In this document: positions 3,709 to 21,939 of the stretch, in pieces | How positions within the stretch are numbered: position 1 is the stretch's first letter | Layout of the letters: each line of letters opens with the position of its first letter | DNA from: Natrarchaeobius chitinivorans | Lineage (GTDB): Archaea > Halobacteriota > Halobacteria > Halobacteriales > Natrialbaceae | DNA: 33,269 nucleotides | Assembly (NCBI RefSeq): GCF_003841505.1 | Contig: NZ_REGA01000028.1 | Location: forward strand, 1 to 33,269 | Reading direction: 5' to 3' | Made by a program: the position numbers and the translations under genes | Notes under the pieces: generated by a model | Databases searched by the model: none | What the model was told of the DNA's origin: nothing | Seen by the model: only the letters and a program-made list of their open reading frames with translations

Positions 3709-3791
3709 ATACGGATTACTGTAACTGTGTACCGGCGCACCCGCCGCCCGGGTTGCGGGTGCGCCGGCAATGACTTGACAGTAAACCGTAT
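3709..3791 (-). repeat. 82-83-bp palindromic repeat, copy 1
   Basis: This copy lies in inverse orientation relative to the other three. Its reverse complement starts ATACGGTTTACTGTCAAG and ends ACAGTTACAGTAATCCGTAT. The inner stem is CCGGCGCACCCGC paired with GCGGGTGCGCCGG. The reverse complement is almost identical to copy 4 at 21858. It lies between nrdJ and the small zinc-finger gene, and the base before it completes TGATACGG, as at one end of every other copy. Confidence 0.9.
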
Positions 3792-3873
3792 GAGACGTCA
3801 GTCACGAGTTCGCGGCCGTCGCCATCGGAGACGGCCCCAAGAGAGCGACCGATCTCACAAAGTTCCGTCCGAC

Positions 3874-3880
3874 AGTATTA
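3874..3880 (+). promoter_or_regulatory. Probable TATA box of the zinc-finger gene
   Basis: AGTATTA lies 27-33 nt before the ATG at 3907, the spacing expected for a leaderless haloarchaeal transcript. Confidence 0.4.
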
Positions 3881-3906
3881 GCATCGCTCGAGTACAACTG
3901 GCCAGT

Positions 3907-4086
3907 ATGACGTCCGACGGTGACGGCGGTGGCGGCTCTGGTCGGGACGATTCTTCGGCCAGCGAAATCGACGATCGAGCGGGACCGACCTGTCCGCACT
4001 GTCGGAGACCGATGTACGAGCGCCACTGCAAGTACGTCTGTCCACAACACGGCGTAATCATCGACTGTAGCGATCCGTTTCTGTGA
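3907..4086 (+). CDS. Small zinc-finger protein (59 aa)
   Basis: After a disordered acidic Gly/Ser/Asp N-terminus (residues 1-27) comes a compact metal-binding part. It has Cys29 and Cys32 in CPHC, His40/Cys41, Cys45, His48 and Cys54, ending IIDCSDPFL. Two pairs of ligands, CxxC and CxxH or CxxxxC, can be drawn, so one zinc ion is likely. It resembles the family of haloarchaeal zinc-finger micro-proteins, most of which have no known partner. I chose the internal ATG because the frame upstream runs through repeat copy 1 and is not protein-like, and because a TATA-like box lies ~30 nt upstream. The last base of the TGA stop is the first base of repeat copy 2. Confidence 0.8.
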   Translation: MTSDGDGGGGSGRDDSSASEIDDRAGPTCPHCRRPMYERHCKYVCPQHGVIIDCSDPFL

Positions 4087-4167
4087 TACGGTTTACTGGA
4101 AGTCAGTACCGGTGCAACCGCGATCCGTCCTGCGATTGCACCGGTACACAGTTACAGCAATCCGTAT
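4086..4167 (+). repeat. 82-83-bp palindromic repeat, copy 2
   Basis: It starts ATACGGTTTACTGGAAGTCA and ends ACAGTTACAGCAATCCGTAT. The inner stem is CCGGTGCAA paired with TTGCACCGG, so both arms differ from copies 1 and 4 yet still pair. It begins inside the stop codon of the zinc-finger gene and ends 15 bases before the convergent VTT-type gene. Confidence 0.92.
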
Positions 4168-4182
4168 GGGTCGTCGATCCCG

Positions 4183-4914
4183 TTACCCGTCGGTCGATCG
4201 AGCGGACCGTCTCGTCCGGCTCCTCGAGCGAGCAACGCGGTAGGCGGGCCCTGCGAGTAACAGTGCGGCGGCGAGTACACAGGCGACCGAGAGGGCGATT
4301 CCGAGTTCTTCCAGCCCGTCCATCGTAACCGTCGCAGCCGACGCGCCGACGAAGACGGCGGCGACGGTCCACGGCAGTTCCCCCGCCGCCGTCCCGACGA
4401 CGAGGTGGCGCAGTCGGACGCCGCTGGCTGCAGCAGCACACGTCGAGACGTCCGACGGGATCGGCGCGAGCCGCGAGGCTGTTACGCCTCGAATCGGTCC
4501 TGCTGTCCGATAGTATCGCGTAATCACCTCACCGATTCCGTCCATCGATCCCCACCGCGCTGCCGCGAGCCCGCTCGAGCGATCGACCGGTTCGTCGGGG
4601 TCGGGTGCGAACCACCGGGCGGCGAAGAAGACGGGGACGACGGTTACGACGACGCCTGCAAGTGCGATCGGGACACCGAGTGTGACACCGTACCCGTACC
4701 CGGCGACGACAGCAAGTGGCGTCGTCGGCCAGGCGAAAAGCGGGCGGACGAGGTAGAGGCCGGCGACGACGGCCCCGAACAAAAACGGATCAGCGGCTAC
4801 GGATTCGAGCCTCGTGAGAGCCGTCGATGGCGAAACGAGCAACCCCGCGGCGACGATCGCACTCGCCACGAGTATTCCGGCGAGCGCACGCGTCGACACC
4901 GACGGAACCGACAT
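4183..4914 (-). CDS. VTT/TVP38 (SNARE-associated) family membrane protein
   Basis: This 243-residue integral membrane protein has about five to six hydrophobic segments. The middle matches the VTT (DedA/TVP38/TMEM64) family: a re-entrant region rich in small residues around PLFAWPTTPLAVVAGYGYG, followed by a basic/aromatic stretch, RYYRTAGPIRGVTASRLAPI, with the Arg-x-x-Pro loop typical of the family. Such proteins are thought to move lipids or solutes using the proton gradient. The substrate here is unknown. The start at 4914 (MSVPSVSTRALAG) is preferred over an upstream start because the extra residues are hydrophilic and a TATA-like ACAAAAGC lies ~30 nt before it. It is divergent from the gene at 5011. 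Confidence 0.75.
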   Translation of the reverse strand: MSVPSVSTRALAGILVASAIVAAGLLVSPSTALTRLESVAADPFLFGAVVAGLYLVRPLFAWPTTPLAVVAGYGYGVTLGVPIALAGVVVTVVPVFFAARWFAPDPDEPVDRSSGLAAARWGSMDGIGEVITRYYRTAGPIRGVTASRLAPIPSDVSTCAAAASGVRLRHLVVGTAAGELPWTVAAVFVGASAATVTMDGLEELGIALSVACVLAAALLLAGPAYRVARSRSRTRRSARSTDG

Positions 4915-5010
4915 CGATCGCAGTTTCGACTCGAACGCCGAAGCTTTTGTGACTCGAGTCGAAGCCGGACGACACAACGTTTATTCGCTCCGGGCAGCCA
5001 GCACCTACCG
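4915..5010. promoter_or_regulatory. Divergent promoter region
   Basis: This 96-bp spacer separates two leaderless-looking genes. GTTTATTC at about 4979-4986 lies 25-32 nt before the ATG at 5011. ACAAAAGC, read on the minus strand around 4942-4949, lies ~30 nt before the start at 4914. Both fit archaeal TATA-box spacing. Confidence 0.45.
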
Positions 5011-5514
5011 ATGGACAGAGAGGGAACCGACGACCGCCGCGGTGGGGATCACCTCGACGACCGCAGCGGCGAGGACCGCCCCGACGACCGCAGCGGCGGG
5101 GACCACCACCACGACCGCAGCGGCGGGGACGACCCTGGCGAGCGTAACGATGGGGACAAACTCGACGATCGCGTGGAACTCGGACTCGCGTTGCTCGAGC
5201 ACCTCGAGCACGAGTCGCTCTCGCTCGCCGACGTCGTCGACCGCATCGAGACGGTTACGTCCGATCCGGCGGTGACGCGGACGATTCTCGATCAGGCCGA
5301 GTTTCGCGGCATCATCGAACGCGAGGACGGAATCGTCCGGCCGAAGAGCCGCCAGTACGTCAGTTTCGACGAGGACGTGATCACGAAAGAGGGGGAGTTC
5401 TCGTGTCGACGCTGTGGCTCGAGCCTGTCGACCGGGTACTTCATCGATCTCGAAGCGGGTGAACTCGGCCCCTTCGGCTCCTCGTGCATCCGAAAAGTAA
5501 CCGGCCGCGAATAG
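5011..5514 (+). CDS. Haloarchaeal conserved protein with CxxC motif (DUF5830-like), repeat-extended N-terminus
   Basis: The protein has 167 residues. The conserved part (about 55-167) has a helical winged-helix-like portion (VELGLALLEHLEH...) and a C-terminal module with CRRC, a Gly-rich segment and a later Cys in GSSCIRKVTGRE, suggesting a small zinc site. It resembles a family of unknown function restricted to haloarchaea; DUF5830 is my tentative assignment from memory. The first ~45 residues are four copies of a nine-residue acidic repeat (DDRSGGDHH-type), which reads as a recent expansion in a disordered tail. A role in DNA or RNA binding is possible but not shown. Confidence 0.7.
   Translation: MDREGTDDRRGGDHLDDRSGEDRPDDRSGGDHHHDRSGGDDPGERNDGDKLDDRVELGLALLEHLEHESLSLADVVDRIETVTSDPAVTRTILDQAEFRGIIEREDGIVRPKSRQYVSFDEDVITKEGEFSCRRCGSSLSTGYFIDLEAGELGPFGSSCIRKVTGRE
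5031..5138 (+). repeat. 27-bp tandem repeat, four units, inside the CxxC-protein gene
   Basis: Units start at 5031, 5058, 5085 and 5112. Each begins CGACCGC(A/C)GCGG or a close variant and encodes nine residues: DDRRGGDHL, DDRSGEDRP, DDRSGGDHH, HDRSGGDDP. The last three share CGACCGCAGCGGCG exactly. Confidence 0.85.
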
Positions 5515-5561
5515 TGACGTAACCGGCCGCAAGAAGGGAGTCGAAATCGGAGAGCGGCCTG

Positions 5562-6677
5562 CTACCGTCCGCGCCGAAGTTCGGTGATCAACTGATCGAT
5601 CGTCTCCTGTTGTCGTTCGATGAGGTCGTTCTGGCGGTCGACCGCCGACTCGAGTCGGTCGAGACGCTCTATGAGTTCGGGATCGGGATCGCTCGCAGCA
5701 TCGGCCTGGTCCGCCGTGCGCTGGGGCGTTCCGTTAGCGCTGGATTCGTCGAAGACGTTCCCGGTTTCGATGGTTGCCGTCCGCTGTTCGGCGTTCGAAC
5801 CCGCCGCGGATTCGCCTCCGCCGTGGGCGGATTCCCCGGTGTCGGATTCTGATCGCGGATCGTCCTGTGGCCCCTGATTCGGAGTCGCTTCGATCTGGCT
5901 TCGCCCACCCCGTTCTCCCGTGGGGTCGCCCGCGTCGACGGCGTCCTGATCGTCGGGTTCTGGTGGATTTGCATCGAGCGGATCGACGCCGTCACCGAAG
6001 TCCATCGACGCGTCGGCCCGTTGGTCTGTCTCGTCGTCTTCCCCGACTTTTTCGTTGAGTTCCTCCAGGGAGCTGACGTCGTGATAGTCGAACAGGGCCC
6101 GTTTGAGACGCTCCCGAAGGTCGTTCGCTTCCTCGTTCGGGGCTTTGATCCGCTGGGGCCGCCCGTCGACGACGAGGACGATCTGCATTGCGACGCTACC
6201 GTCTTCGAACGAGAGTTCGCTCACGTCTCCGAAGTGGTACTCCTCGTAATCCTCGTCCCAGACCGCACCCCCGATGTGTTTGACGAGTCGATCGCTCGTG
6301 ATGAGTAACGTCAGTTCGCTGAATCGGTAGGTCTGGACGACCGTTTCGCCCGGTTCCGTGATGTCGTTTCCGTTCAATACGCCGGCGAGAACGGGGTGAA
6401 GTGCCGCGTCGGTTTTGCTCGAGGGGACCGTAAACTCGCGAGTTCCCTCGAGTGCATACTCGAGGGTGAATTTGGTTTTTCGTCGGCCTTCCGAGAGGGT
6501 CAGGCGGTCGGCGTCGTGGGGGTAGTCGTCGACCGATTCGTCGCTCAAGAGACCGTCGGCACGATAAACGAGTGTCCGCGTCGGAGTGATAAACAGTTGA
6601 TCCTCGCCGCCGAGAGAAACTCGTGCTGCGATCTCCTCGTCGTCGAGAGTAGACTGGACGATTCCGGGAACGCTCAT
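5562..6677 (-). CDS. Haloarchaeal conserved protein (DUF7115-like) with C-terminal coiled coil
   Basis: The protein has 371 residues. The N-terminal ~210 residues contain two similar beta-rich halves (GEDQLFITPTRTLVYRAD and RFSELTLLITSDRLVKHIG), resembling tandem PH-like or bPH folds. The middle (~215-325) is a disordered Asp/Glu/Gly/Ser linker. The end (LDRLESAVDRQNDLIERQQE...) is a heptad coiled coil, so it probably oligomerises. It is soluble and has no signal peptide. I recall this architecture as a haloarchaeal family of unknown function (DUF7115, tentative). The ATG at 6677 (MSVPGIVQ) is preferred because the residues upstream are poor in acidic residues and unlike the family start. It is divergent from tRNA-Met. 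Confidence 0.7.
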   Translation of the reverse strand: MSVPGIVQSTLDDEEIAARVSLGGEDQLFITPTRTLVYRADGLLSDESVDDYPHDADRLTLSEGRRKTKFTLEYALEGTREFTVPSSKTDAALHPVLAGVLNGNDITEPGETVVQTYRFSELTLLITSDRLVKHIGGAVWDEDYEEYHFGDVSELSFEDGSVAMQIVLVVDGRPQRIKAPNEEANDLRERLKRALFDYHDVSSLEELNEKVGEDDETDQRADASMDFGDGVDPLDANPPEPDDQDAVDAGDPTGERGGRSQIEATPNQGPQDDPRSESDTGESAHGGGESAAGSNAEQRTATIETGNVFDESSANGTPQRTADQADAASDPDPELIERLDRLESAVDRQNDLIERQQETIDQLITELRRGR

Positions 6678-6748
6678 GTCGCGGTAGTTCGCAAGGGCCT
6701 GTGATAAATCCGTGGGTCCCCGTTGCACGGCAGCGCCGAATGAGAAGC

Positions 6749-6753
6749 TTAAA
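6749..6753 (+). promoter_or_regulatory. TATA box of tRNA-Met
   Basis: TTAAA within GAAGCTTAAAG lies 28-32 nt before the first base of the tRNA, with purine-rich BRE-like bases just upstream. Confidence 0.6.
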
Positions 6754-6780
6754 GAAACGGACCGCACTACGAGAGAACGA

Positions 6781-6931
6781 GCCCGGGTGGCTTAGCTGGA
6801 CATAGCGCCGCACTCATAGGGTTCAGAGATTCGGTGCGGTTTCGCCTTGGAAGCCTCCGTGTCCCTCGAGGACTGCCGAGCCTCGAACCTGGGACATGCG
6901 GAGATCGAGGGTTCGGAGCCCTCCCCGGGCA
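6781..6931 (+). tRNA. trnM: Elongator tRNA-Met (CAU) with a 77-nt intron
   Basis: Exon 1 is 6781-6818 and exon 2 is 6896-6931. The acceptor arms are GCCCGGG (6781-6787) and CCCGGGC (6924-6930), with discriminator A6931. The anticodon stem is CCGCA (6808-6812) with TGCGG (6897-6901). The loop is CTCATA plus A, with anticodon CAT at 6815-6817. The T arm is GAGGG-TTCGGAG-CCCTC. The intron (6819-6895) lies between positions 37 and 38, the canonical archaeal place, and begins GGGTTCAGAGATTCGGTGCG. Elongator tRNA-Met introns of about this size are known in haloarchaea and are cut at a bulge-helix-bulge by the tRNA splicing endonuclease. CCA is not encoded. Confidence 0.95.
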
Positions 6932-7256
6932 CTGGCTTTCTATCCGAAGTCACGAACGCAGCGAGTGACGAGTCCGGAATCCAGTGCCCGAACGAGACGG
7001 AGAACCCGGAGGTCCTCAAGAGTGAGCAATGCGAGGCGCGAGCGTCGTGAGCGCCTCGAAAATGCGAGCGGCGAAGCCGCGAGCACAGCGAACGATCGAG
7101 GGAACGAAAGAGCTCGCTTTTCGGTGGTTCGGAGGCGGAGACCCGGTGGTCTTCAGCGAGCGAACCGAGGCAAGCAACAGCGTTTTTCCACTCGACGCAG
7201 ACATCCTAACCGCCCAACAACCGCGGAATCGACGTATTCGGTGAATATTTCGTTCG
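6932..7256. other. Non-coding spacer with hairpins
   Basis: I see no credible gene. The tRNA 3' end GGGCACTGG (6928-6936) is followed ~50 nt later by its inverse CCAGTGCCC (6982-6990), forming a long-loop hairpin. Further on, GAGGCGC and GCGCCTC (about 7030-7058) form another, and short GCGAGCGGCGAAGCCGCGAGC-type palindromes follow. These look like a terminator plus typical haloarchaeal intergenic palindromes. The promoter of the antiporter pair must lie in the last ~60 bases, but no strong TATA box stands out. Confidence 0.5.
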
Positions 7257-8996
7257 ATGGCTCTCGGTGGAATCGCCCTTGCGACGGATTTCGCGCTCCT
7301 GATCGTCGCCGCGACGGCGTTGAGCTACGTCGCCCGGCTGACGAGACAGCCGACCATCGTCGCGTACGTCCTGACGGGTGTCGTCGTCGGCCCGATCGGC
7401 CTCGGAATCGTCGGCGAGGGCGACCAGCTGATCGAAATCGTCGCCGAACTCGGCCTCGGATTTCTCCTGTTCCTCCTCGGCATCGAGATGCGTTTCGAAG
7501 ACATCCGGGAGATCGCGAAACCCGTCGGTGCGATCGCCGTCGGTCAGGCGGTGTTACAGGCCGTCACATCGACGGCCGTCGCCCTCGTGCTGGGGTTCAC
7601 GTTGTTCCAGTCGCTGGTGATTGCGCTGGCGACGACCTTCGGCGCGACGCCGATCATCGTCAAGGTACTCGGGGACAAGGACGATTTAAAGACGCTGTAC
7701 GGCAAGGTCGACGTCGGAATCCTCATCTTTCAGGACATCTACCTCGTGATGGCACTTGCTATTCTCGCGGTCGGAACCGTCGACGACGTCACAGAGATTG
7801 CCACGAGCATCGGCCGCGTGTTCTTCCTGATGGCCGTTATCGGTGTCTTCGCCTTCCTGGCCAGTAAGTACTTCCTGCCGGCGATATTGCGAGCGAGCGC
7901 CGCGAACAAGAGCACACTCTTTACCGTCGGCATCGCGTGGGCGTTTCTGTTCATCTTCGCGGCCGAAACGCTCGCTCTCTCCATCGAGATCGGTGCCTTC
8001 CTTGCGGGACTCGCGCTCGCACAACTCCCGTACAGCACGGAACTCAAAGAACGAATGCGCCCCGCGACGAACTTCTTCATTGCGGTCTTCTTCGCGAGTC
8101 TCGCCCTCCAGATGGGCGTCGAACAGTTGCTGGTCTACTGGCAAGAGGCAATCGCGGCGTCCGTCCTCCTTCTCAGTATCAACTTCTTCATCGTCTTCGG
8201 GTTGTTCTACAGCCAGCGGTTCGACATCGAAACCTCGTTTCTCGGTACGATCTCGATGCTCCAGGTCAGCGAGTTTTCGCTGGTGTTGGGCGCACTCGCC
8301 GTCGAAGAGGGATTCGTCGGGGAGGACATACTCGGCTTTCTCAGCCTCATGGCGTTGATCACGATGCCGATCTCGACGTACTACGTACTCTACAACAGGC
8401 AGATCTACCGTTACGTCCGGCCGTACCTCGAACGGTTCGAACGCGAAGACACTGTCGAAGCCCAGCCCATCGAATACGAGAATCACGCCGTGATCGTCGG
8501 CTACAGCCGCTTTACGAGCGAACTCGTGGACGTCCTCCTGAACGCCGACGCGTCCGGCCCCGGTGTCGACGATGTCGTCGTCATCGAGGATCGGGCTGAG
8601 TACGTCGAAGCACTCTCGAGGGCGGATTTCGGTTTCATCTTCGGGAACGCCCGACACGGCGACATCCGACAGGATGCGAACCTCTCGGGTGCCGAGGTTG
8701 TGGTGAGCGTCGCAAAACGCACCGACGTCTCTCTCCGATTGGTCGAAGACGCCCCGAACGCGTTGACGATCGTCACGGCCACGACCGAGGCGGAAGCGAC
8801 GCGCCTCCACGAGGCCGGTGCCGACTACGTCGTGCTCGAGCGGGGCCTCGTCGGCGAGGAACTGGCGACCCTGCTCGAATCGCTCGACGACCTCGAGGCG
8901 TTCGAACGACGACTCGACGAACTTAACGATCGGGCACGGAACGGTTCACCGCGGACGCACGAGACCGTTTCGTCCGGAGGTGAAACCGATGTATGA
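7257..8996 (+). CDS. CPA2-family cation:proton antiporter (KefB-type), first of a pair
   Basis: This 579-residue membrane protein has ~12 hydrophobic segments over residues 1-395 and a cytoplasmic TrkA-N-like region from about 405 onward. The transport part has the Kef-type sequence VAYVLTGVVVGPIGLG in helix 2, GFLLFLLGIEMRFE after helix 3, and FQDIYLV, where the QD pair is the likely cation/proton site. Such proteins exchange K+ or Na+ for H+. The nucleotide-binding loop is degenerate: VIVGYSRFTSEL replaces the usual GxGxxG, so NAD(H) control may be altered. It overlaps the next gene by 8 nt, arguing for one transcript and perhaps a joint complex. Whether it moves K+ or Na+ cannot be read from the sequence. 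Confidence 0.9.
   Translation: MALGGIALATDFALLIVAATALSYVARLTRQPTIVAYVLTGVVVGPIGLGIVGEGDQLIEIVAELGLGFLLFLLGIEMRFEDIREIAKPVGAIAVGQAVLQAVTSTAVALVLGFTLFQSLVIALATTFGATPIIVKVLGDKDDLKTLYGKVDVGILIFQDIYLVMALAILAVGTVDDVTEIATSIGRVFFLMAVIGVFAFLASKYFLPAILRASAANKSTLFTVGIAWAFLFIFAAETLALSIEIGAFLAGLALAQLPYSTELKERMRPATNFFIAVFFASLALQMGVEQLLVYWQEAIAASVLLLSINFFIVFGLFYSQRFDIETSFLGTISMLQVSEFSLVLGALAVEEGFVGEDILGFLSLMALITMPISTYYVLYNRQIYRYVRPYLERFEREDTVEAQPIEYENHAVIVGYSRFTSELVDVLLNADASGPGVDDVVVIEDRAEYVEALSRADFGFIFGNARHGDIRQDANLSGAEVVVSVAKRTDVSLRLVEDAPNALTIVTATTEAEATRLHEAGADYVVLERGLVGEELATLLESLDDLEAFERRLDELNDRARNGSPRTHETVSSGGETDV
8976..8983 (+). promoter_or_regulatory. Strong Shine-Dalgarno for the second antiporter
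   Basis: GGAGGTGA, a full match to the haloarchaeal anti-Shine-Dalgarno, ends 5 nt before the ATG at 8989. It lies within the end of the first antiporter gene and supports translation of the second gene from the same mRNA. Confidence 0.8.
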
Positions 8997-10629
8997 GATC
9001 CTGTTCGCGCTGACGCTGATTTTCGTCCTCGCGGCCGGCTTGTTGCTCGTCGCCGCACAGCAGGATCTTCCAGTGATCCCCTTTTATCTGCTCGCGGGTG
9101 TCCTCGCCGGATTCGCGATCGACGAAACGCAACTGCTCGATCTGGCCCAGTGGGGAATCGCGTTTCTGGTATTCCTCTTCGGCGTCCACGTCGATCTCGA
9201 GGCGTTCCGATCGACCGGACGCGTCAGCGCCACCGTCGGGGCCGTCCAGGCGTCGCTCGTCGGTACTCTCCTGTTTGGTCTCGGACTCCTGTTCGACCTC
9301 GACGTGTTGAACGCCGTCTACCTCGGCATCGCGGCCGCCCTGAGTTCCTCACTCGTCGCGAAGAGCTACCTCGACGCGGACGACGCCGTTCGACCGACGT
9401 ACGAACGGCTCGCAGAGTCGATTCATTTCACCGAGGATATCCTCGGCGTGCTCGTCGTTCTCGGATTGAGCACGTTCGTCTACGCACAGACAGCCACCGC
9501 GCAGCAGTACGCGGTTGCCGGGGTGATGGTCGCGCTCGCGCTCACGATTCGGTACGTCGTCTTCCATCGACTGACCGCCAGACTGCAGGGGGATGCAGAG
9601 GTGATGATGTTGCTCGGTATCTCGATCCTGATCGGATTCATCGCGATGGCAGAAGCCGCTGGCCTCTCGATCGTCGTCGGCGCGTTCGCCGCCGGGATCA
9701 CCATCGCCGACGACTACCCTCACTCCCTCGAACTCGTCGATACCGTCGACGACCTGGAAGACTTCTTTACGCCGATATTCTTCGTCACCGTCGGTGCGTT
9801 GCTTGCGATCCCGACCCTCGAGACGGTCGGGTACACGCTCGCGCTGGTCGTGGCAGTCCTGGTCGTAAACCCACTGCTCGTCGCGTTCATTCTCCTCCGA
9901 AGCGGCTTCGACGGGCGAACGTCGATCCTCGCGGGTCTGACGCTCGATCAGGTGAGTGCGTTCAGCCTCTTTATCGCGATCGAAGCTCTCGGCGCGGGGA
10001 CGATCGCTCGTCCCGTCTTCGATGCGATCGTCCTCGCAGCAGCAATCACGATGATCGTCGCGACCTACACCGGTCGCCACGCCGGTTCGATCAACCGCTT
10101 GCTGCGCGAGCGTGGCGTCGTTAGCATCCTCGGCGAACCGCTGGGCGAGCGGACACACGTAACCGAGGGGCTAACCGGACACGTGATCGTCATCGACTTC
10201 CAGCACGGCGGCCAGCAGGTTCTCGAGGCCTGCTCGCATCTCGATCGACCGCTACTCGTCATCGAGGACAATCCCGTTCTGTTCGAGGAGGTACGGGACC
10301 AGTGTGACAACTACGTTTACGGGGACGTTCTGAACGACCGAGTGTGGGACCTGGCACAACTGGACGACGCCGCGGCTGTCGTTTCTCTCGCCCCGGAGTA
10401 CGACCGCGCCCGGCGAATCGGTACACTGGACGCGGACGTTCCACGGTTTGTTCGCGTCGACACGACCAATGCGGCCGAGGAACTCCTTGAGCTCGGTGCG
10501 ACCGGCATCGTCTATCCGGACGCGATCGCGGCGGAACGCGTCGGCGACGATCTCGAGGCACTGCTCACCGAAGAGATCTCCCACGAGGAATTCGTCGATC
10601 GAAGCCAGAGCTACTACGACAGGCTGTGA
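8989..10629 (+). CDS. CPA2-family cation:proton antiporter (Kef-type), second of a pair
   Basis: The protein has 546 residues, with ~12 membrane segments (residues 1-385) and a C-terminal TrkA-N/RCK-like region (about 400-530). The transport part has the Kef pattern FLVFLFGVHVDLEAF after helix 3 and HFTEDILGVL at the ion-binding helix, where Glu-Asp replaces the Gln-Asp of its neighbour. In the RCK-like region the nucleotide loop reads VIDFQHGGQQVLE: the first two glycines of GxGxxG are lost, the reverse of the partner's defect. The start MYEILFALTL is fixed by GGAGGTGA 5 nt upstream. It is a distant paralogue of the preceding gene and probably works with it in ion or pH homeostasis. Confidence 0.88.
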   Translation: MYEILFALTLIFVLAAGLLLVAAQQDLPVIPFYLLAGVLAGFAIDETQLLDLAQWGIAFLVFLFGVHVDLEAFRSTGRVSATVGAVQASLVGTLLFGLGLLFDLDVLNAVYLGIAAALSSSLVAKSYLDADDAVRPTYERLAESIHFTEDILGVLVVLGLSTFVYAQTATAQQYAVAGVMVALALTIRYVVFHRLTARLQGDAEVMMLLGISILIGFIAMAEAAGLSIVVGAFAAGITIADDYPHSLELVDTVDDLEDFFTPIFFVTVGALLAIPTLETVGYTLALVVAVLVVNPLLVAFILLRSGFDGRTSILAGLTLDQVSAFSLFIAIEALGAGTIARPVFDAIVLAAAITMIVATYTGRHAGSINRLLRERGVVSILGEPLGERTHVTEGLTGHVIVIDFQHGGQQVLEACSHLDRPLLVIEDNPVLFEEVRDQCDNYVYGDVLNDRVWDLAQLDDAAAVVSLAPEYDRARRIGTLDADVPRFVRVDTTNAAEELLELGATGIVYPDAIAAERVGDDLEALLTEEISHEEFVDRSQSYYDRL

Positions 10630-10743
10630 GATGTACGTTGACTGCGAGAATCGGCGTTCGCGAAACGTCGGGTTCGACCGTCGTCTCGGTGGCCAATCCG
10701 GAGAGAGTGCAGCCCCGGTGGGTGACGAACGCTAGTCCGCCTC

Positions 10744-10826
10744 ATACGGTTTGCTGCAAGTCAGTACCGGAGCGACCGCGGGATGGAACCCCGGTCGCTC
10801 CGGTAAACAGTTGCAGCAATCCGTAT
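10744..10826 (+). repeat. 82-83-bp palindromic repeat, copy 3
   Basis: It starts ATACGGTTTGCTGCAAGTCA and ends ACAGTTGCAGCAATCCGTAT. The inner stem is CCGGAGCGACCG with CGGTCGCTCCGG. The outer stem TTGCTGCAA / TTGCAGCAA carries paired A-to-G and T-to-C changes relative to copy 4. It lies between the convergent ends of the antiporter gene and the Tat-exported gene, and its last base is part of the latter's stop codon. Confidence 0.92.
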
Positions 10827-11302
10827 CAGTCACAGACGTCGTCGGGGTCACTCGTCGCTTTCCCGACGAGTGCGCCCTTGTAGTACACCTTCACCGTGGC
10901 TTTCCCCTTCGGAGCCTTGACCCAGAACGTTTCGGCGGAAGCGAGCGTGTTCTTGACCACGATCTTCCCTTTCTTGCCGGTTTCAGACACGCGATACGTG
11001 AATTTCATATCGGTGTCTTCGCCGTGGTGGAGGTAGAACTGCGCTCGATCGTTATCGGGATCCGCACACTCGAAGTTGAACGCAACCTGCACGTCAGGAT
11101 CGTAGTCCTTCTTGTATTTGCCGCGGCCTTTCTTGCCCTTCTTACCCTTCTTGCCTTTCTTGCCTTTTTTGTCCTTGTAGTGATCGTTCTTCTCTCCAGC
11201 GCTTGCGGTGGTAACACTGAAAACGGAACTCCCGATGAGTCCACCGCTCACTGCGATACCTTTGAGGGCCGTTCGTCGTGAGATGTGATCGTCGTCTGTC
11301 AT
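10826..11302 (-). CDS. Tat-exported lysine/glycine-rich protein of unknown function
   Basis: The 158-residue product begins MTDDDHISRRTALKGIAVSG, a twin-arginine signal (SRRTALK) followed by a hydrophobic core and an Ala-Ser-Ala cleavage region near residue 35. The mature protein opens with a low-complexity basic segment in which Lys-Lys-Gly is repeated about five times. A ~95-residue beta-rich domain follows (from about VQVAFNFECADPDND) with two Cys, one near each end, that could form a disulfide outside the cell. Such a basic stretch is unusual in a haloarchaeal secreted protein. I do not recognise the domain. Binding to an acidic surface such as the S-layer glycoprotein or DNA is conceivable, but this is inference. 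The start at 11302 is chosen because it puts the RR motif at the usual position. Confidence 0.8.
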   Translation of the reverse strand: MTDDDHISRRTALKGIAVSGGLIGSSVFSVTTASAGEKNDHYKDKKGKKGKKGKKGKKGRGKYKKDYDPDVQVAFNFECADPDNDRAQFYLHHGEDTDMKFTYRVSETGKKGKIVVKNTLASAETFWVKAPKGKATVKVYYKGALVGKATSDPDDVCD

Positions 11303-12551
11303 AGGGCACCCCCCAGCCACGAACGGGACGTCCATCTGGCCGGCGAGTATCGACACCTCCACCAGACGAACGTTTTGTTATCAGTGATCTAACCGATCTA
11401 ACGAACATCTTACGGAGTGAAATATTTTTCACCAGTATCTCATGCGAAACTGAAACAACTGTTGGGCAGACAGACACTTGTGAGAGGAGTTCGTGTCTCG
11501 GACCGCAACCGATTTCTCACACACAGACGGAGCCAATTCCTCTCGTACCAGCGGTTCAGGGAATATCTATTCACCAGATTCGAGAAAGGTGTTCCTTCCG
11601 GCACCCACAGTGATCTCGTACGTGGGGCTGCGATTTCTTGCGTATCTAACCCGTTCGCCGATCGCTATCCCGGAAGGACCAACTTACAACACTGGCATTT
11701 CAAAACCCGTATCCGGTATCGAGCGCTTTCGACGTCGCCGTGAAGACACCGGAGGAGTGGCAGTTGAATCGTGCGTGTCTCGGCAACCGTCAATGGGGTC
11801 GAAAACCTCATCGTTCGGCTTCAACCTTTCACCGGTCCGATCTATCGTTCGTCATTTTTCGAATCGCCTGCGACGAACGACGTGACTGGCTCGTGATCGG
11901 TACGGCAGATCGGAAACCCAAAACGTGTGGATGGACGGGATGAGTCCCTACCCCCAATAGATCAGGGACTTCCAGCGAGGAGACACGGCGTGACGATATT
12001 CTGGCAACGACTGTCGTCTGCCTCCACGCGAGTTCCCGCTATCGCTCCCGTAACCGTCCGCGAGGAGCAGGCGAGGGTGAACGTCCGTTGGAATGGGTCG
12101 ATGACGTATCCCCCACCCCCGCCTGATCGGGCGTTTCGGTGGGAAGTACGTAAAGCTATTGGCCGATTCGCGGGGAGCACTCCGGTAGGTACTGATCTCC
12201 TCGAGCGCCGGCTCGTCGAATCGGATCGCCTTATAACTCGCGTCCAAAACGGGCAATATCCTTTAGTGAGCCGGCAGAGAACACCAGAATGCTTCCGAAT
12301 GGAAGCGATGTATGTGGCGGGTGGTAACCGGTAGGTGGTGAGAGCCGTCACATACACCCACACCTTGCGGTGCGACCGGTAGTTCGTACGCAGTCCATTT
12401 AGGAGTAATTGACAGTGAGAGACAACGTTGCTGCCCGGAGGACGAATCGGAATCGGTACGATTCCGGTCGACTCGCCCGACGCTGGTCCCGCTGGTGTGA
12501 AAGCGGCGGCCAGTGAAGACCGTTTCCGACGTCGCGTCCTAACTCACCGGC
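11303..12551. other. 1.2-kb gene-poor region
   Basis: No open frame here has haloarchaeal protein composition: frames of 100-135 codons are rich in Arg and Ser and poor in Asp and Glu. About 11380-11900 looks richer in A and T than its surroundings. Around 11950-12120 a plus frame stays open for ~60 codons ending ...EWVDDVSPTPA then TGA, which could be a remnant of a mobile-element protein, though I cannot name it. The promoter of the Tat-exported gene must lie near 11310-11340. Confidence 0.4.
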
Positions 12552-13535: not shown

Positions 13536-13868
13536 CTAGACCGATTCTACTCGTATCTCTCCATTAGCCGCGACTGTCACCAGGCAATCGTTGTACTCGA
13601 ACGACACCGAACCGCCGGTTCGAAGACCGTCCGCACGTGGTTCGAACAGTCGTTCGAGGGCGTCTGCGTTGATCGCATAGTGTAACGGATCGAGTTCCGT
13701 AATTTCCGCATTACAGAACGTTGCGACGGCATCCGCGACGGCAACGCTGAGCGGTTCGTCGTCGAGGCGATCGTACTGTGCCGAATAGTGGTCCCCCGTT
13801 TTCGTCGGTGATTTCGAAGTTATCTTACTCATTGTATACGTACCCCCAGTACGCTCGTGGGAAGACAT
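13536..13868 (-). CDS. HalOD1 output-domain protein
   Basis: This small 110-residue soluble protein has residues ~38-108 matching the haloarchaeal output domain HalOD1. A helix (PLSVAVADAVATFCNAE) leads into LDPLHYAINADALERLF, and the domain ends with a beta hairpin in which VSFEYNDCLVTVAANGEIRVE is typical. HalOD1 occurs alone or fused to signalling proteins and its target is unknown. It follows the Bat-like regulator gene on the same strand after a 75-nt gap, so the two may be co-transcribed, though a TATA-like CTTTACAC ~25 nt before 13868 would give it its own promoter. A second possible start is the ATG at 13832. Confidence 0.8.
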   Translation of the reverse strand: MSSHERTGGTYTMSKITSKSPTKTGDHYSAQYDRLDDEPLSVAVADAVATFCNAEITELDPLHYAINADALERLFEPRADGLRTGGSVSFEYNDCLVTVAANGEIRVESV

Positions 13869-13943
13869 TGGTCCCTTCGTGGTTACGTGTAAAGAGCCTA
13901 ATCGTTAATTGTGTAACGCTTCGAGCAGGCAGTGGTTAACTGA

Positions 13944-16900
13944 TTAACCCCCCTCGGGTGGCAGTCCCTCATCGAAAAGCGCCTCGAAGAGTTTTTTCTC
14001 GGTCGACCGGACGTGTTTGTGAAACGCGGGTGACGATATGTCGAGGGAAATCGCGATATCTTCGCCGGTGGTCCGGCGAGGCCACTCGAAGAATCCGCTG
14101 TGATAGGCGGTCTGGACGACCTCGCGTTGCCTGTCGGTGAGCCGGTCGAGGAGGGCGTTCCGACTGGACGCATCGAGCGCGACGAGGTCGTCTCTGGACT
14201 GTTCTCGGCGAGCGATCATCGACGCCCCAACGCCGCGGCGGTTCAGCGTGGAGATGACCTCGCGAACGTCGACCGCGGATGGAACGTGGATAACTGCCCA
14301 CGCCTCTCGGTTTTCACAAACGAACTCCCGTACCATCCCGCCGTGATCGGTGACGACCGAGCCGAGAAACGGAGTCGAGAGTTCGAGTTGTAACAGTGTC
14401 TCCTCCCCGTCGACCCCGAGAACGGAGGCGTCGACGACGTCCCCGATTTCGTTGACCGCCGCGGGAACCGTTTCGCCGTCGACTGCGTCCGTCACCGAGA
14501 CGAACGCGACCGTTCCGTCGTCTCGGGGTGTCATCCCCTCGAGCGAGACGCGGGCGTCCAGATAGTTCGAGAGTTCGACGAGCGCCGAATCGTCTTCGAT
14601 CGCGAGTTTGATCTCCGTCACTTCGTCGCCGATCAGGGCAGTCTTCCGCTTGACGGCATCGATCGTGTACGCGATCGTTTCGCTCAGGTCGACGAGCGTC
14701 GAACGGAACAGTTCGTCGAACGCGTCCGGATCGTCGCCGTAGAGGGACAACACACCGTACAGAAACCCATCGTAAACGAGCGGAACCGCGAACACCGACT
14801 GGTAGTTCTCGGAAAGCGCCTGTGCACGCCAGGAGCCGTCGTGAATCGAATCTGCGACGTTTTGGACGTAGGTCGATTCTCCCGTTCGTGCAGCTCGTCC
14901 CGCCGGTTCGGCCGCGGAGTCGTCGACTGTCGTCACCGTTATCGAGGAGAGGTAACCGCGGTCGCGGCCTGCCGATTCACGAACCTCGAGTCGATTTCCG
15001 CTCGGATCCGGAGTGCCGATCCAGGCCATCGAGCACGCCTCGAGATCCGCGAGGCGAGTACAGATTCCCCGCTCGATCTCCTCTCTGGAATCGGCCATCA
15101 GGAGGTGTTGTTCGATATCCTGTCGAATCCGGTTCGTTTCGTTCAGGCGCTCGAGGTGTTCGTTCTGTCGTTCTAACTCGTGTTCGCGATCGTGGAGACG
15201 CTGGGTACGCCCGATTCGATCGAAGGTGGCCTCGGCCGTCGTTGCAAACAGCTGTGCGAGGTCGACGGTGTCCTGATCGAACTGACCGACCGCAGTGGAA
15301 ACAGCCACGAGTACGCCGTGTTCCCCGAACGGAACGTACAGACCGCTTCTGACGTTCGTCGCCTCATTGTAGACCGTCTCAGACGTTCGGACGTCGTCGA
15401 AGACTGCTGGTGACCGGGAGACGAAGGTCTCCCAGGTGATACTATCGTCGTGTGGACGAAGTCGTGGGGGAACACCCGTTATCTCTTCGAGGCCAGGTGA
15501 GTGGGCTGCCGGAATCAGTTCGTTGTGTTGCTCGTCGAACCGGTACACGATGACACCCTCGAGACCCAATACGTCAAAGGCGACGTCGACGACGTACTCG
15601 CAGGCGGCCTGCTTCGATTCGACGGACAGCAGGTGGCTGGTCGCATCGTGGAGTGCCGACAGCGTCTCCTGATACTGCGTTCGATCGGTGATGTCGACGG
15701 CGATACCGATGACTCGATCGACGTCGCCGTCGGTCGAAATCGGCCGACACCACGCCTCGAGCATTCGATCGGCGACGCGTCGCTGTGCGTGTATCGTTTG
15801 TCCGTCGAGAGCGGCGCGAAAGTCAGCACGAACTGCAGGGTAGTCCTCCAGCGCCGAAAACGCGGATTCGCCGACGATATCGTCGGTATCGACGCCGAGA
15901 TGTTCGAACGCGCGCCCCTCCGCGAACGTGAACGTCCCGTCGCTATCGAGGACGAAAAGCGCAACGGGAACGTTCTCGATCAACACTTCGAGCCGTTCGG
16001 TTCGCTGATCGAGTTTCCGCTCTCGCTCGATACGGTCGGTGACGTCTCGCCAGTAGACGGAGATGCCGGACGGTGACGGATAGATCCGCGCGTCGATCCA
16101 CGCATCGTATGGTTCGAAGTACGCTTCGACGGTTTTCGGTTCCTGCGTATCCACCGCCTCGATCGCCGCAGATTCGAACGGCGACCCCTCGAGACCGGGA
16201 AAAACCGCGAGAATATCGCGGCCGAGCAGTTCGTCCCTGTCCAGATCGATATCCCCGATCGCACGGTCGTTGACGTACGTGAACTTCCACTCCGAATCGA
16301 GCGCGTAGAACGCGTCCGTCACCCTGTCGAACGATTTGTCGAGTTCCCGCACGACGTGGTGGTACGCCGTCGCGTCTCGGATCGAGGCGACGATTCCGGA
16401 GATGGACTCGTCGTCGAGGCGGTTCGTAAGCGTTGCCGCGTGGACCCACCAGCCGTCGTCGTGCTGGAATCGGTACTCGATCGTCGCCGTGGAGCCTGGA
16501 TCCCCCTCACGGAGCGACTCGAGGGTTCTCGAGACCGATGCTCTGTCCTCTGGGTGGACCATATCCACGAACCGTCGGCCAACCAGTTCCTCGGTCTCGG
16601 CCGGGCCGTTCCACTCCTCCGAAGGGACGGCCGCCGCGATCCGGAAGGAATCGTCGACGACGAGGAGCGTGTCTGAACTGTGTGCGAGCAAGCCGCGAGG
16701 AAGGGTTCGCCGGTCATCAGAACCGCGGTTCGTGTCACGTTCCTCAGGATCCCGGTTCGTGTCACGTTCTCCAGGGGTTCGATTTGTGTCACGTTCCTCG
16801 GGCGTCCGACCCGCGTCGAGTTCGATCGCCGTTCGGATTCGATGCTCGAGCAGCGAGGGGACGGTTCCCGATTCGACGGTGAGCACTTCCGTCATGCCGT

Positions 16901-17180
16901 TGTCGAGATGTCGGTCGAGCACCGGCCCGTCGAGGTCCATCGGATCGACGGCGTAAACCGCGGGCACCGCATTACCAACGGCGGACAACACGTCGCGATC
17001 GTCGGTCAGGAGACAATCCACAGCGTCGATAGACCCCGGGTCGAACTCCGAGCGGGAGGGAACCGTCCCGACGACCGACAGCGCGGTTTCCTCGAGTGTC
17101 GCCGTCGCAGCCCGTATCATCTCCGAGGAACCCACGACGAACACGCGGATTCGGTCGGACGTCTCGAGACTGCGGTTCAT
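13944..17180 (-). CDS. Bat-like PAS/GAF sensor with C-terminal HTH_10 DNA-binding domain
   Basis: This is a 1078-residue cytoplasmic one-component regulator. Order: degenerate receiver-like domain (~10-122), a nine-residue repeat linker (126-152), PAS1 (~164-278), PAS2 (~282-388), PAS3 (~394-506), GAF1 (~515-655), a short coiled coil, GAF2 (~690-842), the Bat-associated domain (~850-1000) and an HTH_10 domain (~1010-1062: LTDRQREVVQTAYHSGFFEW ... FHKHVRSTEKKL). It has no histidine-kinase core, so signals sensed by PAS/GAF should pass directly to DNA binding. Bacterio-opsin activator homologues regulate light- or oxygen-linked genes, but this target is unknown. The receiver-like region appears not to keep the usual phospho-acceptor pattern. 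The neighbours are a gamma-glutamyltransferase-family gene upstream and a HalOD1 gene downstream. Confidence 0.92.
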   Translation of the reverse strand: MNRSLETSDRIRVFVVGSSEMIRAATATLEETALSVVGTVPSRSEFDPGSIDAVDCLLTDDRDVLSAVGNAVPAVYAVDPMDLDGPVLDRHLDNGMTEVLTVESGTVPSLLEHRIRTAIELDAGRTPEERDTNRTPGERDTNRDPEERDTNRGSDDRRTLPRGLLAHSSDTLLVVDDSFRIAAAVPSEEWNGPAETEELVGRRFVDMVHPEDRASVSRTLESLREGDPGSTATIEYRFQHDDGWWVHAATLTNRLDDESISGIVASIRDATAYHHVVRELDKSFDRVTDAFYALDSEWKFTYVNDRAIGDIDLDRDELLGRDILAVFPGLEGSPFESAAIEAVDTQEPKTVEAYFEPYDAWIDARIYPSPSGISVYWRDVTDRIERERKLDQRTERLEVLIENVPVALFVLDSDGTFTFAEGRAFEHLGVDTDDIVGESAFSALEDYPAVRADFRAALDGQTIHAQRRVADRMLEAWCRPISTDGDVDRVIGIAVDITDRTQYQETLSALHDATSHLLSVESKQAACEYVVDVAFDVLGLEGVIVYRFDEQHNELIPAAHSPGLEEITGVPPRLRPHDDSITWETFVSRSPAVFDDVRTSETVYNEATNVRSGLYVPFGEHGVLVAVSTAVGQFDQDTVDLAQLFATTAEATFDRIGRTQRLHDREHELERQNEHLERLNETNRIRQDIEQHLLMADSREEIERGICTRLADLEACSMAWIGTPDPSGNRLEVRESAGRDRGYLSSITVTTVDDSAAEPAGRAARTGESTYVQNVADSIHDGSWRAQALSENYQSVFAVPLVYDGFLYGVLSLYGDDPDAFDELFRSTLVDLSETIAYTIDAVKRKTALIGDEVTEIKLAIEDDSALVELSNYLDARVSLEGMTPRDDGTVAFVSVTDAVDGETVPAAVNEIGDVVDASVLGVDGEETLLQLELSTPFLGSVVTDHGGMVREFVCENREAWAVIHVPSAVDVREVISTLNRRGVGASMIARREQSRDDLVALDASSRNALLDRLTDRQREVVQTAYHSGFFEWPRRTTGEDIAISLDISSPAFHKHVRSTEKKLFEALFDEGLPPEGG
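16725..16805 (-). repeat. 27-bp tandem repeat, three units, inside the Bat-like gene
   Basis: It encodes residues 126-152 as TPEERDTNR, TPGERDTNR and DPEERDTNR. On the plus strand each unit carries TTCGTGTCACGTTC or TTTGTGTCACGTTC. The repeat lies in the linker between the receiver-like domain and PAS1. Confidence 0.85.
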
Positions 17181-17289
17181 ACGTTCGCTGTGTTCCGGGA
17201 AAGTAAAAACCTCGCGACGGTTTCGAATCGGTGATTCGTCGTCACCCCGTAATCGGTCGATCTGGCGGCAGTCGACGTTCGAAACGGGA

Positions 17290-18957: not shown

Positions 18958-18994
18958 GGCTGGTCTACGCGCACGAACGACCAAAAAACGCTAG

Positions 18995-19028
18995 TAGCCG
19001 GCCGACACCGATAGCCGGCCGACACCGA
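18995..19028. repeat. 17-bp tandem duplication
   Basis: TAGCCGGCCGACACCGA occurs twice head to tail (18995-19011 and 19012-19028), and a third partial unit may start at 19029 with TAACCG. It lies in the 88-bp gap between the methyltransferase and the gamma-glutamyltransferase gene. Confidence 0.85.
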
Positions 19029-19045
19029 TAACCGCCCGTGGCGGT

Positions 19046-20116
19046 CTACCCGCCGCCCTCGGAAACAGAGAGCGGTTCGTGTTCGACCCGGTAACCGTCG
19101 GCGACGGTCTCGATCGACGCCGCCTCGCGAAACCGGATCGACCGTTCCATCTTCGTGACGACCGACGTGTCGTAGTACTCGGCTTCGTACTCGGGAACCG
19201 TTCCGCTCTCCCGGTTCTCCGCGACGAACTCCCGGTGACGGGCGAGGCGCGAGCGGCCGATCGATCGGGACGTCTCCGGAACGTCGTCGACCCGGTCGTC
19301 GAAACACTCGAGGAACGCTTCCTCGAGTTCGGAGCCGACCGAATCCCGTGCGGCACACATCGCGGCGAGCGTCGTCGTTCCGGTTCCCCAGAACGGGTCG
19401 AGAACCGTGTCGCCGTACGCCGAGTACATACAGATCAGGCGGTAGGGGATCTCGAACGGGTACGCCGCCGACCGCTCTCGAAGCCCGTCGTCCTCGCCGT
19501 CGAACTCGAGGGTCTGTAGTTCCCCCCGGACGTCCGTCCAGAGGTCGGTGAACCACCGGTTTCGCTCCTCCCAGAAGTACGCCGCCTCGTACCGCCTGTC
19601 CGCCCGCGGTTCGAACTCCCGTCGGTCGCTCCCCTTTCGGAAAACGAGGACGTACTCGTGTTCGAGCGTGACGTACGCGTTCGGCGGCAGCGTTCCGCTT
19701 CCCATGAACTTGGCGGCGCTGTTCGTCGGCTTCCGCCAGAGGACGTCGGGAAGCGGATCGAATCCGCGCGACTCGAACGCCTCGAGGATTCTTGCGTGGT
19801 TCTGGTACACTCGGAAGCTTCCGTCGATCGACCGGGTCGCGTCGCCGACGTTGATACACGCGATGCCGCCGTCGACCAGGACGCGCTCAAGTTCGTCCCA
19901 CACGCGATCGAGTTGGGCGTGCATCGCCTCGAAGGCCTCGCGGCCGTCGCCCGACTCGAGGGCCCTGCCGACGGCCGGGTCGAGAGTCGAAAAGAGGTCG
20001 TCCCACATCTCGATCATCGGATACGGCGGGGACGTGACGACGAGTTCGACGGAGTCGTCGGCGACCGAAGAGAGGTCACGCGAATCGCCGACGAAGACGC
20101 GGTGTATCGTCTCCAT
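19046..20116 (-). CDS. Orphan DNA methyltransferase (probable N4-cytosine type, beta class)
   Basis: The 356-residue enzyme has the catalytic motif TSPPYP at residues 28-33 near the N-terminus and the S-adenosylmethionine motif DPFWGTGTT at 240-248. This circular order is typical of the beta class. TSPPY favours N4-cytosine over adenine methylation. No restriction endonuclease gene is adjacent, so it stands alone. Haloarchaea widely carry an orphan m4C methylase acting on CTAG, and this gene is a good candidate for that family, but the target cannot be read directly. The ATG at 20116 is chosen because the further upstream start would be a GTG adding only three residues. Confidence 0.88.
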   Translation of the reverse strand: METIHRVFVGDSRDLSSVADDSVELVVTSPPYPMIEMWDDLFSTLDPAVGRALESGDGREAFEAMHAQLDRVWDELERVLVDGGIACINVGDATRSIDGSFRVYQNHARILEAFESRGFDPLPDVLWRKPTNSAAKFMGSGTLPPNAYVTLEHEYVLVFRKGSDRREFEPRADRRYEAAYFWEERNRWFTDLWTDVRGELQTLEFDGEDDGLRERSAAYPFEIPYRLICMYSAYGDTVLDPFWGTGTTTLAAMCAARDSVGSELEEAFLECFDDRVDDVPETSRSIGRSRLARHREFVAENRESGTVPEYEAEYYDTSVVTKMERSIRFREAASIETVADGYRVEHEPLSVSEGGG

Positions 20117-20228
20117 TGGGTACACACTGTCGGCGTCGCCCCCTTAGGTCCTTCGTAGCGCGGCCGGGAGAACGGATCGCCGGAGTCGCCCTTTTGACCC
20201 CGATATCAGAAACTCAATCGGATCGGCG

Positions 20229-20801
20229 TCACTCGTCTTCGACGTCGGATTCCTCTGTCTCGCTTTCGGACTCCATCTCCTCGCTTTCGGCTTCCTCGTC
20301 CTCTGTTTCGGCTTCTTCCGCTTCGCTTTCCTCGTCCGATCCGACGCTCGTCGCCGGTTCGAACTCCTCGATCGGTTCCCACTCGTCGTCCGTCTCCCCG
20401 GAAAGTCGCCGGCGCAGGATCGCGACCCCCGCGAGAATTCCGAGAACGGCGAGAACCTTCGGAAGGATGCTCGAGGAGTCGGCGTCGTCCGACTCGTCGT
20501 CGATTTCGATCATCCCGTCGTCGTCTTCTTCGGCGATGTCTTCGATGATTTCGGGCTCCTCGATGTCCTCGAGAGGCGTCTCCTCTAAGTCGGGGCCGTG
20601 ACGACCGGCGAGATATCCGACCGCGGCACCGAGACCGAACACCGCGCCTGCGAGTGGGATCTGGCGGCGTTTCCCGCCCCCGTCGGCTTCTTCGACCGCC
20701 TCGAGAATCGAATCACGCATCGGCGTGTCTAGACCCTTCTCGACGGCCTCTTTGACGATGAGCTCCGACAGCGTCCTGTCCTGTTGTTCCGTTTCGGGCA
20801 T
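20229..20801 (-). CDS. Two-helix membrane protein with acidic C-terminal tail
   Basis: The protein has 190 residues. The N-terminal ~50 residues are soluble and helical (LSELIVKEAVEKGLDTPMRDSIL...), followed by a membrane segment near residue 52-70 (IPLAGAVFGLGAAVGYLAG), an acidic loop, a second membrane segment near 115-130 (VLAVLGILAGVAIL) and a ~50-residue tail that is almost all Glu, Ser and Asp. This is a recognisable haloarchaeal architecture without known function. The start at 20801 is preferred because the minus-strand TATA box AATTATG lies 26-32 nt upstream (leaderless). Confidence 0.75.
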   Translation of the reverse strand: MPETEQQDRTLSELIVKEAVEKGLDTPMRDSILEAVEEADGGGKRRQIPLAGAVFGLGAAVGYLAGRHGPDLEETPLEDIEEPEIIEDIAEEDDDGMIEIDDESDDADSSSILPKVLAVLGILAGVAILRRRLSGETDDEWEPIEEFEPATSVGSDEESEAEEAETEDEEAESEEMESESETEESDVEDE

Positions 20802-21124
20802 AATTCGCCACGACCACATCACCGTACATAATTCTGTCCAACGTTTCGATGGATCGGTCCCACACGTGTCGGGTTACGTCCGTATTACTATCCGCGGCTG
20901 CCGGATTCGACAGGAGGTTCGCCACGACTGATGCCGATTCACGACAGGACTCCGATCGTACGTTTCCCGCCGATCCGGAGATAACTCGCGTCCGTGATCT
21001 CTCGAGTCATCGCTCGGACCGGTCGGAGAAATAGATCGTTAACCAGCTATATGTATACGCGTCGAGAGTATTCCCCGCGAGTAATGTCTTGCATAACGAA
21101 ACCGGTCGTCTCCGAGTAACGACT
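20802..21124. other. Divergent intergenic region
   Basis: No gene is seen. Near the left side lies the TATA box of the minus-strand gene (CATAATT at 20827-20833 on the plus strand). An A/T-rich GCTATATGTATACG at about 21046-21059 is the likely promoter element of the plus-strand membrane gene, giving a leader of about 40-50 nt. Confidence 0.5.
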
Positions 21125-21769
21125 ATGAGCGTCATCCGCCAGCCCGGTGTTCTCGGCCGGACCACCCGGAGACGCCTCGTCGGCGTGAGCGTCGCTCTCG
21201 CCGCTGCGACGGTCGAGACCCTGGCCATCGGCCTCTGGTTCGTCCTGCTCGTCGGTTCTCCCTCGACGGCGACCGCACTCGCCGGGCTCGGTATCCTCTT
21301 CTGTGGCTCGTTACTGCGAACGGCCATCTTCGGCTTCGCCGCGAACGAACTGAACCAACTCCTGCGACCGTGGCGTCTGGGTGCGGCGCTGGCGCTTACA
21401 GCCGGATGGATCGTCTGGCTATTCGTCGCCGAAGCCATCGGCGGAACTGCCGGACTCGTCGCTGGGACGGTGATCCTCGCGGGCGTTCTCACCGGACAGT
21501 TCCTCCTCGAACGGCGCGTGTTTCGGTTTCGCTCCCCCGACGGACTCGAGGTCGCACCGCTCCTGTCAGCCACGCTGTTAGCAGCGGGCGGGGCGGCGTT
21601 GCTCGCGTCGGTCTGGGTTGTCGACCTGACGGTCGTCTCTCCGCCGGTCGCCGTGGACACGACGACGTTCGTGATCCGCATCGAAACGATCCAGATCGGT
21701 GCACTCGCGTTCGGACTGTTCGCGTTCGTCGCCCACCAGCGACGGTTTCAGCGGCTTCTCAGCAGCTGA
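21125..21769 (+). CDS. Six-helix membrane protein of unknown function
   Basis: The product has 214 residues and six hydrophobic segments: about 20-42, 47-65, 80-100, 103-122, 140-160 and 185-202. A basic N-terminus (RTTRRRLVG) and a basic C-terminal tail (HQRRFQRLL) suggest both ends face the cytoplasm. No conserved catalytic residues stand out and I do not recognise the family. The ATG at 21125 is preferred to an upstream TTG. Repeat copy 4 follows 88 nt after the stop. Confidence 0.65.
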   Translation: MSVIRQPGVLGRTTRRRLVGVSVALAAATVETLAIGLWFVLLVGSPSTATALAGLGILFCGSLLRTAIFGFAANELNQLLRPWRLGAALALTAGWIVWLFVAEAIGGTAGLVAGTVILAGVLTGQFLLERRVFRFRSPDGLEVAPLLSATLLAAGGAALLASVWVVDLTVVSPPVAVDTTTFVIRIETIQIGALAFGLFAFVAHQRRFQRLLSS

Positions 21770-21857
21770 TCCGGCGTACTGTCCGTCCAGTCCACTCGCG
21801 ATCATCCGCGAATGCGCCCGTGAGTCGGTCCAGCGACCCGTATGAACCCGGCTGGTC

Positions 21858-21939
21858 ATACGGTTTACTGTAAGTCATTGCCGGCGCACCCGCGACCCAG
21901 GCGGCGGGTGCGCCGGTAAACAGTTACAGTAATCCGTAT
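21858..21939 (+). repeat. 82-83-bp palindromic repeat, copy 4
   Basis: It starts ATACGGTTTACTGTAAGTCA and ends ACAGTTACAGTAATCCGTAT. The inner stem is CCGGCGCACCCGC with GCGGGTGCGCCGG, the outer stem TTACTGTAA with TTACAGTAA. It lies between convergent genes and ends 3 nt short of the stop codon of the FMN reductase gene. Confidence 0.92.

Follow-up and report, generated by a model that had tools for sequence, protein, structure and literature searches.

The four palindromes found in the window, by which we mean the whole 33,269-nt stretch of Natrarchaeobius chitinivorans DNA that was analyzed, are very probably copies of a MITE-like element, a reading drawn from sequence comparison that best explains the observations as a whole, including a preference for stop codons. 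The element is of a known kind; the unexpected feature is its exact coincidence with the stop codons of neighboring genes. We regard it as a non-autonomous transposon because its copies are flanked by a target-site duplication and orthologous sites are empty, the latter comparison being made between species rather than strains. It is also short (80-81 bp, where MITEs span about 50-500 bp), non-coding and bounded by terminal inverted repeats.

The window copies and their family

All four palindromes were confirmed where the first-pass annotation had placed them, with copy 1 inverted and with compensatory changes in their stems (Table 1), and that annotation had also read the constant internal strings and the stems correctly. 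The inner stem is CCGGCGCACCCGC in copies 1 and 4, begins with CCGGTGCAA in copy 2 and is CCGGAGCGACCG in copy 3. The length originally given, 82-83 bp, included an outermost A and T that are part of a flanking 3-bp duplication; the element proper runs TACGG...CCGTA. The first-pass annotation had missed two features, namely the flanking repeats of TGA or TCA and the position of copies 2 and 3 directly next to stop codons. The gene ending at copy 2 has orthologues in relatives that terminate at the same residue, and on its other side this copy faces a convergent VTT-domain gene (4183-4977, minus strand). Copy 3 lies between a Na/H exchanger gene (8989-10629, plus strand) and a 178-aa gene (10826-11362, minus strand). 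The duplication of copy 4 is 1 bp from the TAA stop of a flavin reductase-like gene (21943-22617, minus strand).

Table 1. Coordinates of the element copies and their flanking duplications in the window
Feature	Position	Strand	Description
Copy 1	3710..3790	-	81 bp, inverted; in the gap that separates a ribonucleotide reductase gene (403-3615) from a small zinc-finger-like gene (3907-4086)
Copy 1, left target duplication	3707..3709		TGA
Copy 1, right target duplication	3791..3793		TGA
Copy 2	4087..4166	+	80 bp; directly follows the stop codon of gene 3907-4086 (59 aa)
Copy 2, gene-proximal duplication	4084..4086	+	TGA, the stop codon of gene 3907-4086
Copy 2, gene-distal duplication	4167..4169		now decayed to TGG
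Copy 3	10745..10825	+	81 bp; inner stem CCGGAGCGACC/GGTCGCTCCGG
Copy 3, gene-proximal duplication	10826..10828	-	TCA on the plus strand, read as the TGA stop of gene 10826-11362
Copy 3, gene-distal duplication	10742..10744		TCA
Copy 4	21859..21938	+	80 bp
Copy 4, left target duplication	21856..21858		TCA
Copy 4, right target duplication	21939..21941		TCA

Chance resemblance is excluded, because the terminal motif has 10 matches in the window against 0.94 expected, the four copies fold with z-scores of -6.2 to -10.3 and no shuffled sequence did as well, and the genome (4.57 Mb) has 174 instances of the half-site TACGGWTTNCTGNAA and none of its reversed control. The window also contains two tandem repeats of another kind: four 27-bp units (CGGTTCGTGTCACGTTC...) at 16699-16823, within a long minus-strand ORF (13944-17180), and a 27-bp repeat (CGACGACCGCAGCGGCGGGGACGACC) at 5027-5161, within ORF 4405-5514, where it encodes a short repetitive stretch.

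The family is far larger than the four copies. A covariance model made from 32 copies gave at least 150 scored matches in the source genome, some places being counted on both strands. Sampling about 1.5 Mb in stretches around these matches, together with earlier loci, yielded at least 196 distinct copies (149 of the 196 exactly 80 bp long), and scaling by half-sites puts the genome total at an estimated 235 or so. Apparent 67-bp copies were an artefact of loose matching. Among 121 Natrialbaceae genomes, 88 had matches, in 23 of 29 genera; Salinadaptatus, Natronococcus, Natrialba, Natrarchaeobius, Natronorubrum, Halopiger and Natronolimnohabitans are among the hosts. Two genomes with high copy number (G016 and G015) hold many equal-scoring copies, and in two other haloarchaeal families copies are few and sparse. 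Exact half-sites were absent from 27 of 30 genomes with zero or few model matches; of the remaining three, one with 4 model matches has 9 half-sites and two have a single one each.

Among haloarchaeal plasmid records (L367-L372 and L379-L382), only a handful of Natrialbaceae megaplasmids carry copies, with 1-3 per record, and one Haloarcula plasmid also holds some; copies per Mb of plasmid are far below those of the source genome. Viral carriage was considered and rejected: the six half-site matches in viral contigs, all of them without the second arm and in DNA of 39-54% GC, were read as chance, and phage records gave no match to the element.

Target-site duplications, empty sites and the search for a parent

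Identical TSA triplets (TCA or TGA) flank 156 of the 196 copies in the source genome and 147 of 177 in other genomes. At the central base the pair was C/C in 88 cases, G/G in 66 and a C-G mismatch in 3 in the source genome, and G/G in 77, C/C in 68 and mismatched in 3 elsewhere. Since this base is identical rather than complementary on the two sides, the triplet is a duplication and not an extension of the hairpin, and we rejected an account of it as RNA pairing. The wider target is itself palindromic, approximately GWC-TSA-GWC. The proportion of intact duplications falls from 98 to 84 to 61% with growing distance of a copy to its nearest other copy, so the triplet behaves, as expected, like a scar decaying with copy age. 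A site-specific circle with a fixed core is disfavored, as one element sequence was found with both TCA and TGA flanks.

Comparison of orthologous loci also points to insertion. The gap between the zinc-finger-like and VTT-domain genes, which holds copy 2, is empty in most relatives; in G002 and G021 family members lie elsewhere within it, and an apparent degenerate half-copy also lies at the orthologous stop codon in G002. The site of copy 3 is empty in G001, and G003 has a related copy no more than 3 codons from the same place; an ancestral insertion shared by G003 and copy 3 was set aside as indistinguishable from a second insertion there. Of a cruciform, an RNA hairpin and a REP- or MITE-like mobile element, the readings first offered for these palindromes, the MITE-like one is thus supported by the 3-bp duplication, by empty orthologous sites, by independent insertions and by near-identical recent copies.

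Prokaryotic MITEs (PMC10969869), including those of Haloquadratum (PMC3119063), are likewise short, non-coding, intergenic elements of high copy number with terminal inverted repeats and a short duplication. The present element differs from them in that its parent was not found, in that nearly all of it is palindromic with a covarying inner stem, and in its exact preference for stop codons. Mobile MITEs lacking a functional parent in the genome have been reported in Haloquadratum (PMC3119063). A review describes MITEs as usually intergenic and one Coxiella family as mostly in 3' untranslated regions; a term search of it gave no mention of stop codons (PMC10969869). The literature searched, which covers the field incompletely, contained no MITE with TGA stop-codon duplications.

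A REP-like element had been another of the initial suggestions; spread of such an element by a Y1 (RAYT/IS200-IS605-type) transposase acting on a single-stranded hairpin appears very unlikely here. REPs, especially those of the GTAG class, are also high-copy extragenic palindromes, as is this element with its hairpin kept by covariation, and GTAG REPs often overlap the stop codons of flanking genes, to which some of their termini provide a TAG stop (PMC3733652). However, REPs are 20-40 bp long and tied to Y1 transposition, which leaves no target duplication, whereas an identical 3-bp duplication, decaying with age, is almost universal around this 80-bp element. Its symmetric terminal repeats are DDE-like, and no GTAG/CGTC tag was seen at its ends. 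We find it scarcely credible that the element is a small mobile repeat of the SMR type, whose terminal repeats have no relation to known transposons. In Haloquadratum walsbyi, SMRs and PATEs are small, transposase-free repeats; SMRs, like this element with its length of about 80 bp, have terminal repeats and no known parent. However, the definition of SMRs excludes a target duplication, which the present element has, and PATEs do not duplicate their target either and lack terminal repeats (PMC3119063).

No autonomous parent with the element's ends was found in about 2.6 Mb that we scanned for unpaired terminal repeats, which returned only interrupted or composite elements. The ends were also absent from 30 IS4/IS5-type (PF01609) transposase loci, whose confidently readable duplications measure 8-11 bp; definable IS ends had other termini and mostly longer duplications. 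Two candidate parents, L282 and L329, were rejected, because each has transposon DNA beside a truncated element copy, read as a later insertion. Duplications of 3 bp of the TNA type are made by the IS1031 group of the IS5 superfamily and by PIF-Harbinger transposons. The element resembles these in duplicating a TNA-form triplet within a palindromic target, which we treat as a lead only; by contrast, its terminal sequence is unmatched, and the tested host genomes have neither PF13340 nor PF13359 transposases. The earlier remark that no named family with this sequence is known agrees with our searches: Rfam gave no match at E up to 1 for window positions 3000-5000, which include copies 1 and 2, and no paper identified in the literature search gives the terminal sequence as a haloarchaeal repeat.

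Coincidence with stop codons

Gene prediction in the sampled loci, which were chosen for holding copies, relied on a crude finder based on codon usage; by its calls, 81% of the sequence sampled is coding. None of 193 copies in the source genome, and 5 of 177 in other species, overlap a predicted gene. Convergent gaps hold 58 copies, tandem gaps 108 and divergent gaps 25 (gaps present: 232, 632 and 250, respectively), corresponding to densities of approximately 1.2, 0.7 and 0.3 copies per kb of gap. In 82 of 191 source-genome copies the duplicated triplet is the in-frame stop codon of the neighboring gene, and it is TGA in all but one of the 82; in other species 88 of 167 copies lie exactly at a stop codon. 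Start codons show no comparable peak at zero distance. The stop fraction is if anything underestimated, because the small gene preceding copy 2 escaped the gene finder. Deposited annotation, which is independent of this finder, places 5 of 10 plasmid copies exactly at stop codons, the genes encoding a FAD-dependent oxidoreductase, an archease, a PHP-domain protein, a Gfo/Idh/MocA oxidoreductase and a pyridoxamine oxidase. At stop sites the gene-distal triplet decays and the gene-proximal triplet remains a stop. There is a mild bias in orientation, with 52 copies at stops opposite to the gene and 30 with it (p = 0.02).

Some of this excess may be survivorship. That survivorship explains all of it, through insertion at TSA motifs followed by the loss of copies that harm genes or regulatory regions, is a real possibility, although we lean against it. 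The lack of overlap with genes in such densely coding DNA and the depletion of divergent gaps both fit this account, and stop codons suit the target motif (GAC TGA): the expected proportion of stop sites is 10% when all TSA sites in gaps and at stops are counted and rises to 19% with motif weighting by a target matrix built from non-stop insertions only. The observed proportion nevertheless exceeds the latter value (p = 2e-14). The excess also persists in convergent gaps, where promoters are not expected, with 38 of 58 copies at stops against 37% expected from a matrix of all sites (p = 1e-5). Among sites with a CTSAG core in convergent gaps, 13 of 31 at stops are filled compared with 7 of 59 elsewhere (p = 0.003). 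Finally, the stop fraction is similar in recent and old copies (0.44, 0.36 and 0.46 from recent to older), which speaks for a choice made on insertion rather than for slow retention. Rapid removal of harmful insertions could still account for the preference.

If the choice is made at insertion, the element may be steered to TGA stops by something beyond the motif, such as 3'-end topology or the termination machinery, with the duplication regenerating the stop and the hairpin becoming an mRNA 3' element; we put forward this steering tentatively and with some doubt. Were it true, a sizeable share of host genes would have received a ready-made mRNA 3' element.

Stem covariation and a model of spread

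Among 39 diverse copies, 90.3% of stem cells pair, and changes on both sides occur in 101 cells compared with 33.7 in shuffles, with a covariation score of 0.282 against 0.110 when shuffled and at most 0.088 when partners were slid; the rows are related, and these figures count sequences rather than events. The inner stem covaries most, with double changes in 10 of its 13 pairs, and the stems CCGGTGATTGCC, CCGGTGGGTCGCC and CCGGCCCAGCCGC have little in common past their CCGG start. Within source-genome subfamilies, 228 cells carry single unpaired or G-U changes versus 51 with paired double changes, the latter against 9 expected by chance. The proposal, made when the palindromes were first noticed, that paired substitutions reveal selection on the fold or its copying as one unit therefore holds between subfamilies but not plainly for individual copies. 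Inserted copies look free to decay, because stem changes within subfamilies are mostly unpaired, and we infer that palindromy, lost once a copy is inserted, is restored among the source copies.

These data also bear on the idea that the hairpins serve the host as 3'-end signals (terminators, mRNA stabilizers or small RNAs) that are under selection and mobile only in origin, which we consider unlikely. Covariation between subfamilies would suit such a role, as would the exact position after the stop, the higher density in convergent than in tandem and divergent gaps and the mild orientation bias. However, orthologous sites in most relatives lack the element, the stem changes within subfamilies are mostly unpaired, the stop fraction does not rise with age, and the window region searched against Rfam had no match.

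On the MITE-like reading, the element is a miniature inverted-repeat transposable element some 80 bp long whose terminal repeats, TACGG(A/T)TT(A/G)CTGTAA, would be moved by a transposase supplied in trans, presumably of the DDE type. Its target, as observed, is palindromic, of roughly the form G(A/T)C-T(C/G)A-G(A/T)C, with the central three bases duplicated. The TGA of the target is preferentially a gene's stop codon, a preference that probably arises at insertion, and the duplication would rebuild the stop, leaving the gene intact with the hairpin directly after it. Source copies would keep their palindromy by paired changes in the inner stem, whether mobility requires the fold or one arm is copied onto the other, and copies once inserted would decay. 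A palindrome could thus persist through paired change among source copies while the inserted ones decay.

By inserting at stops and rebuilding them, the element would be able to spread through a genome that is 81% coding and leave its genes unbroken, which possibly amounts to a rule for harmless insertion. Some eighty or more genes would carry a hairpin exactly at their 3' end, a natural experiment, with replicates, on the response of archaeal mRNA 3' ends to structure.

Variant forms of the element were also observed. In Salinadaptatus, a 137-bp composite (L054:5428-5564, L087:3583-3719, L111:4415-4551 and L113:7759-7895) consists of a normal first half, an extra module with GACTCGCTTCG/GAGTCGAAC motifs and then the other end. 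A distinct subfamily in G008 (L298-L306), with the inner stem CCGGTGATTGCC, has its subterminal bulges (GTCTC) shifted but retains the TSA flanks. A second palindromic element of about 100 bp, with TAGGGATTATCGT ends and a TCA duplication, lies inside a family copy at L207:17690-17820 (G000:C14); an element with the same ends in L174 seems to be flanked by an ACT duplication.
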